Shown: piece after piece, positions 10,553 through 13,131 of the stretch | Numbering within the stretch: position 1 is the first letter of the stretch | Layout: every line of letters starts with the position of its first letter | From: Candidatus Gastranaerophilales bacterium | GTDB lineage: Bacteria; Cyanobacteriota; Vampirovibrionia; Gastranaerophilales; Gastranaerophilaceae | Assembly (NCBI GenBank): GCA_905235155.1 | Contig: CAJOKJ010000011.1 | Coordinates: forward strand, 62,001 to 126,000 | Length of the DNA stretch: 64,000 nucleotides | Direction of reading: 5' to 3' | Program-made: the position numbers and the translations under genes | Notes under the pieces: generated by a model | What the model was told of the DNA's origin: nothing | What the model saw: only the letters and a program-made list of their open reading frames with translations | Databases searched by the model: none

Positions 10553-11665
10553 ATGAAAAATATTGTAGTTGGTGCAGGGCTGACAGGTTCTGTTATAGCA
10601 AATTTAATAGCAAATAAATTAGGCGAAAAAGTTACCGTAATTGACAAAAACAATTTTGTCGGCGGTAATATTAATGATTATGTTGACGAACAAACTAAAA
10701 TCCACGTTCATCGCTTTGGTCCGCACATTTTTCATACTAATTCAGAAAGAGTTTGGAATTACTTATCTCATTTCACTGACTGGCATGAGTACTCTTTTGA
10801 ACCAAATGTAGTTATCGAAGGTCAAAAAGTAACTCTGCCATTTAACTTAAACACAATAAAACAATGCTTTGACGAGCAAACCGCTGAAAAATATATAAAA
10901 AAACTTGTCGAAACATACGGAATGGAGCATAAAATTCCGATTTTAGAACTTAAACAAACGAATGACGAAGATTTAAAATTTATTGCAGATTTTGTTTATA
11001 AATATGTATTTGAGGGTTATACCGTTAAACAGTGGGGCTTAAAACCGGAAGAAATCGACCCGTCTATTACGGCAAGAGTTCCTGTATTCATAAGTTATGA
11101 CAACAGATATTTTCAAGACAAGTATCAAGCCATACCCAAAAATGGCTATACTGAAATGGTTAAAAATATTCTTAATCACAAAAATATTGAAGTACGTCTG
11201 AATACAAAATATCAAGATTTAACAGAAAATTTTGACAGAATTTTCTATACCGGCTCTATTGACGAATTTTTTAATTACAAATACGGAATGTTACCGTACA
11301 GAAGTCTTACTTTTGATATTGAAACGCTTGATTGTGAATATTATCAGCCAACCGCTATGGTAAATTATCCTTGCGATAACGATTATACAAGAATAACAGA
11401 ACATAAATATTTTTTGAATGAACAATCAGAAAAAACAGTTATTTCAAAAGAGTATTCACAAGCATTTGAGCTTGGAAAAAACGAAAGATATTATCCGATA
11501 AAAAATGATGAAAATGCAAATTTATACGAAAAATATTTAAATGACACAAAGCAACTAAAAAATACCTACTTTTTAGGCAGGCTTGGTGCATATAAATATT
11601 ACAACATGGATCAAGCGGTACTTGCAGCACTAGAGTTCTTTGATAACTTCAATAACTCTATCTAA
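10553..11665 (+). CDS. glf: UDP-galactopyranose mutase
   Basis: NIVVGAGLTGSVIANLIA...NDYVDEQTKIHVHRFGPHIFHTNSERVWNYL...; likely start is the internal ATG at 10553. Confidence 0.95.
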   Translation: MKNIVVGAGLTGSVIANLIANKLGEKVTVIDKNNFVGGNINDYVDEQTKIHVHRFGPHIFHTNSERVWNYLSHFTDWHEYSFEPNVVIEGQKVTLPFNLNTIKQCFDEQTAEKYIKKLVETYGMEHKIPILELKQTNDEDLKFIADFVYKYVFEGYTVKQWGLKPEEIDPSITARVPVFISYDNRYFQDKYQAIPKNGYTEMVKNILNHKNIEVRLNTKYQDLTENFDRIFYTGSIDEFFNYKYGMLPYRSLTFDIETLDCEYYQPTAMVNYPCDNDYTRITEHKYFLNEQSEKTVISKEYSQAFELGKNERYYPIKNDENANLYEKYLNDTKQLKNTYFLGRLGAYKYYNMDQAVLAALEFFDNFNNSI

Positions 11666-12846
11666 CGCACCTTGATTTGCTTCAAATACGTTTTTGCAAT
11701 CTTCGCAGCACTTGTTATAAAAATCTCTATCAGAAAGCAGTTTCCGCATATATTCTTCAAGTTCTTGTGCATCTGCAACAAGTTTTGCCGCATTTGTTTG
11801 GGTTAGGAGTGCAAATATATCTTTAAAATTATGAATACATTTGCCTGAAATTACGGGCTTTTCAAATACTGTCGCTTCAAGCGGGTTATGTCCGCCTGTT
11901 TTGTTAAAACTTCCGCCCATAATCGCAAAATGGCACAATGAATAGGCTTTTCCAAGTTCTCCCATTGTATCAAGCATTATAATTTCTTTGTCGTCAAATT
12001 TATCACCTTTAGAACGCAGTCCCCATTTTAATCCTGTTTTTTCAATCAATTTTTTTACAGCTTCGTGTCTTTCCGGGTGTCTTGGTGCAACAAGAAGTTT
12101 TGCGTCAGGAAATTCTTTTTTAATATGCTCAAAAACAGGAATAATTAACTCGTCTTCTGTTGAATGTGTGCTTCCTGCAATTATTATACGACCTTGTCCT
12201 AAATCAAAATCACAATCTTTGCGGGAAATGTCAAATTTTAAATTGCCCATAACTGTTGTTGTTTCAGGGTTAGCACCTATTGAAATCAGTTTTTGATTGT
12301 CTTGTTCGGATTGGGTTAAAATTCTTGTGTAGTTGCGTAAAACAGGCTTGAAAAAGAACGACAGTTTTTTATAACTGTTATAAGTTCTGTCTGAAATTCT
12401 GCCGTTTATAATTAGTAAATTTATTCCTCTGTTTTTAACAAGTCTTGCAAAATTAGGCCATAACTCTGTTTCTGCTACAATTATTGTCTTTGGATTAACC
12501 TTGTTCAAAAAATGACCTATACAAAACGGAAAATCAAACGGAAAATAGGTTATAAAATCAGCAACATCTTCTAATTTTTTCTTGGCAATTTCTTGTCCTG
12601 TTTTGGTTCCTGTGCAAACAACAATTTTATTATTAAAAGTTTCTTTGGTTTAATAAGGTTTTCTAAAGCAATAACTTCACCAACAGAAACTCCGTAAAAT
12701 ACTATTGAATCTTTTAATTCAGGTGCATCAAAATATCCGCATTTTGTTTTAAATCCGTGTATTAATTTTGGTTTAAAAATTCCTGCAATAAGCCAAAATG
12801 GTAAGATTAAGATAAATAAAATTGTTGAAAAAAAGCCATATATCAT
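11630..12846 (-). pseudogene. waaA: 3-deoxy-D-manno-octulosonic acid (Kdo) transferase, frameshifted near 12646-12654
   Basis: N-terminal part (12571-12846) ...IVFYGVSVGEVIALENLIK then shifts to the frame TKETFNNKIVVCTGTKTGQEIAKKKLEDVADFITYFPFDFPF...NKVNPKTIIVAETELWPN; consistent with one missing base. Confidence 0.88.
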
Positions 12847-12872
12847 AATATAATTATCTTACCACGAACATT

Positions 12873-12878
12873 TATAAT
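12873..12878 (+). promoter_or_regulatory. Putative -10 box of the 23-aa toxin-like gene
   Basis: TATAAT; no good -35; predicted TSS about 12885. Confidence 0.45.
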
Positions 12879-12953
12879 TAAATACAAGGGGCGACCGCAT
12901 CTCCTACGCACGACAAACATTACTGAAAGATGGTGAAAGGAGGTGAAAACTAC

Positions 12954-13025
12954 ATGAAAAACAAAATAAAAATTGCTATAACGGTAATTATAGCAATTTT
13001 ACAAATCATTTTGTTGAGTTTGTAG
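12954..13025 (+). CDS. Small hydrophobic type I toxin-like peptide (23 aa)
   Basis: MKNKIKIAITVIIAILQIILLSL*, preceded by AAAGGAGGTGA; below ORF-track length cut-off. Confidence 0.7.
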   Translation: MKNKIKIAITVIIAILQIILLSL

Positions 13026-13068
13026 GGGGTCTGAAAAGGCTGTTTGACCGAACAGCCACCCTCTGTAT
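12958..13068 (-). ncRNA. Predicted convergent antisense RNA (antitoxin candidate) overlapping the toxin-like ORF
   Basis: Minus-strand promoter TTGAAA (13101-13096) N16 TGTTATAAT (-10 at 13079-13074); ends at 12-bp stem AAAATTGCTATA/TATAGCAATTTT followed by TATTTTGTTTTTC. Confidence 0.6.
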
Positions 13069-13073
13069 ATGTC

Positions 13074-13101
13074 ATTATAACATATTTTTATAAAATTTCA
13101 A
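13074..13101 (-). promoter_or_regulatory. Strong sigma70-like promoter for antisense RNA
   Basis: TTGAAA-16 nt-TATAAT with extended -10 TGn. Confidence 0.65.
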
Positions 13102-13131
13102 GTGTAATGGATATAAAGAAAGGTAGGAAAA

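Follow-up and report, generated by a model that had tools for sequence, protein, structure and literature searches.

A candidate type I toxin-antitoxin-like cassette with a Shine-Dalgarno-sequestering leader in non-photosynthetic Cyanobacteriota

The window analysed here, a stretch of 64,000 nucleotides from a Candidatus Gastranaerophilales bacterium (GCA_905235155.1, contig CAJOKJ010000011.1), carries between kdtA and an aminotransferase gene a small cassette whose parts are collected in Table 1. They follow an order conserved among homologues: a weak toxin promoter, a pairing between the 5′ end of the messenger RNA and its 3′ untranslated region (UTR), a hairpin in which the Shine-Dalgarno sequence (SD) is matched by an upstream anti-SD, an open reading frame (ORF) for a hydrophobic peptide and, downstream, a near-consensus promoter for an antisense RNA. 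With 23 amino acids in the window and 21-32 in its homologues, the peptide lies below the 60 amino acids that bound the hydrophobic peptides of type I systems, and it is in this putative sense that we infer the label “toxin” for it. No family in Pfam or NCBIfam matches the peptide, and six of the peptides gave no Pfam hit at E<=1, the sole Pfam signal being a sub-threshold hit to DUF6133 from an extended reading of the window ORF. In Rfam, the cassette has no match at the gathering score when the whole window is searched, and a search of a 351-bp region with E up to 5 returned unrelated weak matches only.

Table 1. Features of the cassette (positions in the window; + and -, strand; SD, Shine-Dalgarno sequence; TSS, transcription start site; MFE, minimum free energy)
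Feature	Position	Strand	Basis
Whole cassette, ~235 bp, from toxin -10 to antisense -35	12872..13106	.	blastn against sister genome L101 breaks between 12871 and 13107
Toxin promoter -10, TATAAT, without a good -35; TSS ~12886-12888	12873..12878	+	homologue comparison
5′ arm of long-distance pairing	12888..12896	+	MFE fold, swap tests
Anti-SD, CATCTCCT	12898..12905	+	fold, shuffles, alignment counts
Direct repeat copy 1, CTGAAA, in anti-SD hairpin loop; predicted antisense docking site	12923..12928	+	unpaired 0.85 in full-length mRNA
SD, AGGAGGTG	12938..12945	+	sequence, fold
ORF of 23 amino acids, MKNKIKIAITVIIAILQIILLSL, hydrophobic toxin-like peptide, stop included	12954..13025	+	21 homologous peptides aligned
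Predicted antisense RNA (putative antitoxin), ~100-110 nt	12955..13066	-	ends inferred from promoter and terminator
ORF palindrome, predicted antisense terminator hairpin	12969..13000	-	followed by T-rich tract on - strand
Direct repeat copy 2, CTGAAA, in 3′ UTR just past the stop	13031..13036	+	repeat comparison
3′ UTR hairpin, GGCTGTTTGACCGAACAGCC	13038..13057	+	fold; close homologues have a hairpin at the same place
Antisense promoter, TTGAAA-16-TATAAT, 11/12	13074..13101	-	conserved in homologues

An earlier note on this DNA had proposed, from the window alone, that an anti-SD near the 5′ end of a toxin-like mRNA sequesters its SD. The sequences and coordinates it gave are exact, the two segments form eight consecutive pairs with one U-G, and folding of the RNA from 12885 to 13075 (MFE -53 kcal/mol, z -4.6 against shuffles) places the helix in both the MFE and the centroid folds. 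Its transcription start near 12885 is also plausible, given that the -10 element would direct initiation where the conserved A(G)GGG of the homologues begins, an AGGG start that in those loci lies 4-10 nt downstream of their own -10. A stronger-looking promoter at 12825-12854 was rejected as the toxin promoter; it sits in host flank that a sister genome also has at its empty site. For the single sequence, when the 53-nt leader was shuffled 5000 times with dinucleotides preserved, 35 shuffles contained an 8-bp match to the SD (p ~0.007). The predicted probability that the window SD is unpaired is 0.00 in the full-length, nascent-leader and 3′-truncated forms, and the mean values for the SD are 0.02, 0.03 and 0.03, respectively, rising to 0.50 when the 5′ end is truncated. 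Sequestration of the SD close to where a type I toxin-like mRNA begins thus holds up as the best reading of these segments, and the comparative evidence described below supports it. As a side observation, GAACATT(G/T)A-AATT-A-ATA lies upstream of the module in several distant loci (window 12860-12890, L043, L017 and L050) and may be a promoter element or the conserved left end of a mobile unit.

Homologues were sought with blastn in 147 genomes from the same family, where matches show ~70-75% identity across the module, and a core set of 25 loci with ORFs of the same kind (23-25 amino acids) was gathered with two queries; one member, the second copy at L049, has an altered reading frame. All 25 share one order: a 5′ AGGG, the anti-SD arm, a conserved CACA/CACG, the loop, the SD and an ORF with a central palindrome, followed immediately after the stop by a GGTACT-like sequence and then by the 3′ hairpin, CCCTA and the minus-strand promoter. 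Copies may stand in tandem ~300 bp apart, with three in L040 and three in L014, the latter belonging to another peptide family. Since a whole-module consensus from MAFFT/RNAalifold was too misaligned, we relied on alignment-free swap tests, in which the 5′ arm of a locus is paired with its own or with another locus’s 3′ arm. For the SD hairpin, own arms gave -15.1 kcal/mol against -12.3 for swapped ones, with 0/20000 swaps as good, following a first run on 18 loci, and the upper stem outside the SD counted 4.35 bp in own against 3.45 in swapped pairs (0/20000). The helices of this upper stem vary from locus to locus (CCGAC/GUCGG, CAGAC/GUCUG, CUAGC/GCUAG, CCAAC/GUUGG and CUGAC/GUCAG), a diversity at one place that argues for many separate changes.

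Alignment counts point the same way. With an unfitted alignment of 23 sequences, the SD helix alone was 86.0% paired against 83.6% in shuffles (2/500). In an alignment of 48 rows fitted to a covariance model, the 48 distinct leaders form 91% of the SD/anti-SD pairs, pairing stands at 81.4% against 78.1% in shuffles, and both helices together hold 25 double-change cells against 9.9 (0/500). Judged by this conservation across homologous sequences, the SD/anti-SD pairing is more than chance. The long-distance pairing, which in the MFE fold of the window joins GGGG to CCCT at 13059-13062 and GACC to GGTC at 13028-13031, likewise scored better with own than with swapped partners (-9.2 against -7.0, 0/20000), as it did in 18 held-out loci (-8.8 against -6.3, 0/20000).

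A minus-strand promoter is present in 25/25 loci with scores of 9-12 out of 12 (11-12 in 23 of them), and the toxin promoters, at 6-12, are weaker overall. The antisense RNA predicted from it would pair with the 3′ UTR and with most of the ORF, not with the SD, and in the window (12957-13066) it folds at -32.5 kcal/mol (z -4.9). The palindrome within the ORF covaries, its arms scoring -10.5 kcal/mol with their own partners against -3.2 with swapped ones (0/20000). The T content of its flank is 0.59 on the minus-strand side against 0.38 on the plus-strand side, the plus strand upstream of the palindrome being A-rich; because this T-rich tract, which derives from Lys and Ile codons, lies 3′ of the palindrome on the minus strand, the palindrome is likely the antisense terminator. 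The short DNA matches at L003, L005 and L007, which are limited to the antisense promoter, were set aside as generic promoters and not modules.

A further regularity links the two ends of the mRNA. The loop of the SD hairpin copies a stretch of ~7 nt that follows the stop codon, and the word is locus-specific, agreeing within each locus and differing among loci (CTGTAAA, TACTAAG, TACGAAG, TGTGAAG, TATGAAG, CTGCGTT, GCGACAA, TACAAAG). Over the 25 loci the longest common stretch was 6.4 for own against 4.5 for swapped pairs (0/20000), and the repeat recurs (6.05 against 4.78, 0/20000) in 19 later loci recruited by a covariance model of the leader hairpin alone, blind to the 3′ UTR; perfect 7-mer repeats occur in 27/43 loci. 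As the loop repeats 3′ UTR sequence, the antisense RNA could also pair with the 5′ leader, and both partners are predicted to be largely exposed (unpaired 0.81 for the repeat in the mRNA loop and 0.87 for its complement in the antisense RNA). Eight mismatches within repeats have a loop G opposite an A in the 3′ copy, which retains antisense pairing through G-U; they are suggestive of such pairing, and GGAG-like words could arise otherwise.

The same repeats, together with the long-distance pairing, might instead form the alternative helices of a switch inside the mRNA, whose 5′ arm would pair first with the loop and then with the 3′ UTR, and the antisense RNA would act only through the ORF and 3′ UTR, with cleavage by RNase III. 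In many loci the 5′ arm (e.g., TAGTA) can indeed pair with a portion of the loop copy (TACTA), and full overlap between antisense RNA and mRNA is confined to the ORF and 3′ UTR. Yet in the window and in L017, L050 and L052 the 5′ arm lacks complementarity to most bases of the repeat, which are repeated nonetheless, and the deviations are of the kind, loop G against 3′ A, that pairing with a U in the antisense RNA would permit. We therefore regard an internal switch as unlikely, though it is the likeliest of the alternatives.

The reading that we consider likely is of a self-contained type I toxin-antitoxin-like cassette at 12872-13106, with an mRNA locked by its anti-SD and an antisense RNA that docks on the hairpin loop. 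The weak promoter would yield an mRNA of ~180 nt encoding the 23-amino-acid membrane-type peptide, whose leader would fold on synthesis, laying the anti-SD on the SD and tying the 5′ end to the sequence after the stop, so that the primary transcript would be silent. From the strong downstream promoter would come an antisense RNA of ~100 nt, ending at the palindrome within the ORF, with complete complementarity to the 3′ UTR and ORF and, through the direct repeat, an additional contact with the anti-SD hairpin loop. The anti-SD would then serve twice, keeping the SD covered until antitoxin binding and presenting the loop on which the antitoxin docks, and, because the repeat differs among loci, an antitoxin would recognise the mRNA of its own locus. 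For translation to occur, the anti-SD arm would have to be lost, e.g., by 5′ processing, or ribosomes would have to invade the hairpin when antitoxin is scarce. Computation shows the sequence elements, how they covary and recur, and the empty site described below, from which we infer both RNAs, as well as toxicity, repression and activation.

Several points weigh against this scheme. Because the antisense RNA and the SD have no overlap in cis, the case for control through the loop repeat is built on covariation alone; covariation in the SD stem is modest, because the ribosome constrains its SD side; and the swap tests correct incompletely for kinship among the loci. A strong intrinsic terminator for the toxin mRNA was not seen, the window copy has an upper stem of just ~3 bp and a shared repeat of just 6 nt, and the window belongs to a draft assembly.

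The same leader and 3′ UTR carry differing peptides, of the MxxxIIKxAI, M...YKEKAPELELLELFLKS and MIVQIIKLLLALALLIIACKI types, and three more peptide families (B, C and D) have related layouts, among them one beside trmFO. Several unrelated peptides on one RNA frame would also suit a non-toxic role, in which the cassette supplies a membrane microprotein regulated by a cis-antisense RNA; however, the strong antisense promoter, SD occlusion, long-distance pairing, tandem copies and presence or absence between sister species are hallmarks of type I systems, and we find a harmless microprotein quite improbable. Returning to the toxin-antitoxin-like reading, we lean, if narrowly, towards a lineage-specific superfamily in non-photosynthetic Cyanobacteriota in which an exchangeable RNA chassis bears several unrelated toxin peptides, and the repeat acts as an insulating code that allows tandem copies and paralogues to coexist. 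Such a chassis would consist of the anti-SD hairpin with its locus-specific loop code, the 5′-3′ closure and an antisense terminator written within toxin codons.

Other modules were noted in passing. Five loci (L034, L069, L072, L075 and L077) have the family A RNA frame with unrelated ORFs, e.g., MSLGVFLLFDFLIEQYKEKAPELELLELFLKS. Beside trmFO, in the same genome (L002, G000:C17 61560-61850) and in relatives (L006 and L008), stands a second module type with the peptide MIDFILLFFILKQKLTLMTSILVLVLLTK, whose SD in CGAAAGGAGG pairs with CTTTCG, whose 5′-3′ pairing is CTCCCG/CGGGAG, and in which ATGACTTCAA occurs in the leader and again in the loop of an ORF hairpin. For family D, inspection by eye suggests that ATGACTTCAA recurs between the leader and the loop of the ORF hairpin; in family B a loop repeat is not evident. 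Tandem modules ~305 bp apart (L014 1074-1758, L015 and L018) encode peptides such as MIFTISEKALMLILLIVIALKLKK and have an SD hairpin and, downstream, a minus-strand promoter region like that of the other modules. Another peptide family, MDNFNISLLLIFLILYILKNGSYLNR, with the SD GAAAGGGGGTCGAT after GGTTGGTTCCCGACTAG, adjoins family A modules in L051, L059 and L065.

In the sister genome G002, the kdtA and aminotransferase neighbours are kept and the intergenic region between them is continuous and devoid of the cassette, which is therefore gained or lost as one piece of ~235 bp that includes both promoters. The ORF lies ~110 bp upstream of the aminotransferase gene on the same strand, a position that would suit a leader peptide or attenuator acting on that gene in cis, but the aminotransferase of G002 is 97% identical without any cassette, homologues of the cassette are found at many other sites and as tandem copies, and the conserved strong antisense promoter would be left unexplained, all of which makes attenuation very improbable and close to refuted. 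Chance complementarity without function, for which one could cite the 0.7% of leader shuffles that contain an 8-bp match, has negligible probability and is already refuted by comparative data, the hairpin being kept in dozens of homologues with compensatory changes.

Among the genomes sampled, the cassette appears confined to one family. A leader model of 52 positions matches 53/118 sampled genomes of the family, and in a phylum-wide sample of 146 genomes all 42 matching genomes belong to it. PsaA/PsaB were found in 48/117 genomes of the same phylum, every one from other families, which identifies the phylum as Cyanobacteriota and the host family, lacking photosystem I in this survey, as non-photosynthetic; genome size, base composition and gene content point to Gastranaerophilales (Vampirovibrionia). 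A blastn search of a plasmid collection gave no match to the module, and in viral contigs neither the exact chassis core nor any 23-amino-acid peptide candidate above the tblastn threshold was found, the peptide profile being too diverse for collection searches. At the locus itself, the minus-strand gene kdtA/waaA is broken into two ORFs (12571-12846 and 11630-12508), and at 12640-12660, beside a T run, the window has 4 bases fewer than sister genome L101; the split is a frameshift or an assembly error.

Among known systems, the closest in its working is Fst/par of pAD1, of the Fst/Ldr family, with a 5′ stem-loop over the SD, direct repeats and an upstream 5′ helix (PMC7472228). Its repeats differ from locus to locus and are believed to determine specificity, and its RNAs converge on a shared bidirectional terminator, the antitoxin being ~40 nt long (PMC7472228). 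The cassette resembles it in the SD-hiding 5′ stem-loop, the 5′-end helix, the short membrane-type peptide and the direct repeats, which would give the antitoxin (RNA II in par) a second contact at the leader. In contrast to par, its predicted antisense RNA is nested, starting beyond the toxin 3′ UTR and ending in the ORF; there is a single repeat pair; the arrangement of convergent promoters with a shared bidirectional terminator is absent; the aligned peptides have neither the PXXXG(C) motif nor a Pfam family; and the host is a non-photosynthetic cyanobacterium. Peptide motif and terminator arrangement thus place the cassette outside Fst/Ldr (par).

In aapA/IsoA of Helicobacter pylori, the antisense RNA lies opposite an ORF of ~30 amino acids, anti-SD hairpins cover the SD while transcription proceeds, and a long-distance 5′-3′ interaction does so in the full-length mRNA (PMC6733600). 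The cassette shares with it SD occlusion and 5′-3′ pairing, and no sequence relation between the two was found. In aapA3, the upstream anti-SD hairpins are transient and 3′ truncation activates the mRNA (PMC6733600), whereas the anti-SD of the cassette is predicted to be stable in every form, the SD opening only on loss of the 5′ arm; moreover, IsoA starts opposite the ORF, and the antisense RNA predicted for the cassette beyond the 3′ UTR hairpin.

Within the phylum, msoT1/msoA1 of the photosynthetic Microcystis aeruginosa is a type I candidate, the first for Cyanobacteria according to its authors, with an SrnB-like MsoT1 (PMC12390103); in the parts of that description available to us we found neither a direct-repeat nor an anti-SD architecture like that of the cassette. 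The same source states that type I systems were known from Proteobacteria, Firmicutes and Tenericutes only, to which the MsoT1/MsoA1 candidate is added (PMC12390103). Our literature searches found no paper covering the cassette and none joining type I systems with Melainabacteria, and Gastranaerophilales and toxin-antitoxin were both mentioned by just two papers, never in a title or abstract. The cassette is a previously undescribed, repeatedly inserted element of non-photosynthetic cyanobacteria. The narrow known range of type I systems stems partly from searches that start at known toxins; here the searchable signature is the RNA chassis, not the peptide. The locus-specific repeat makes it possible to test how numerous paralogous antisense pairs escape cross-talk, and compensatory-mutation tests of SD occlusion can draw on dozens of natural variants.
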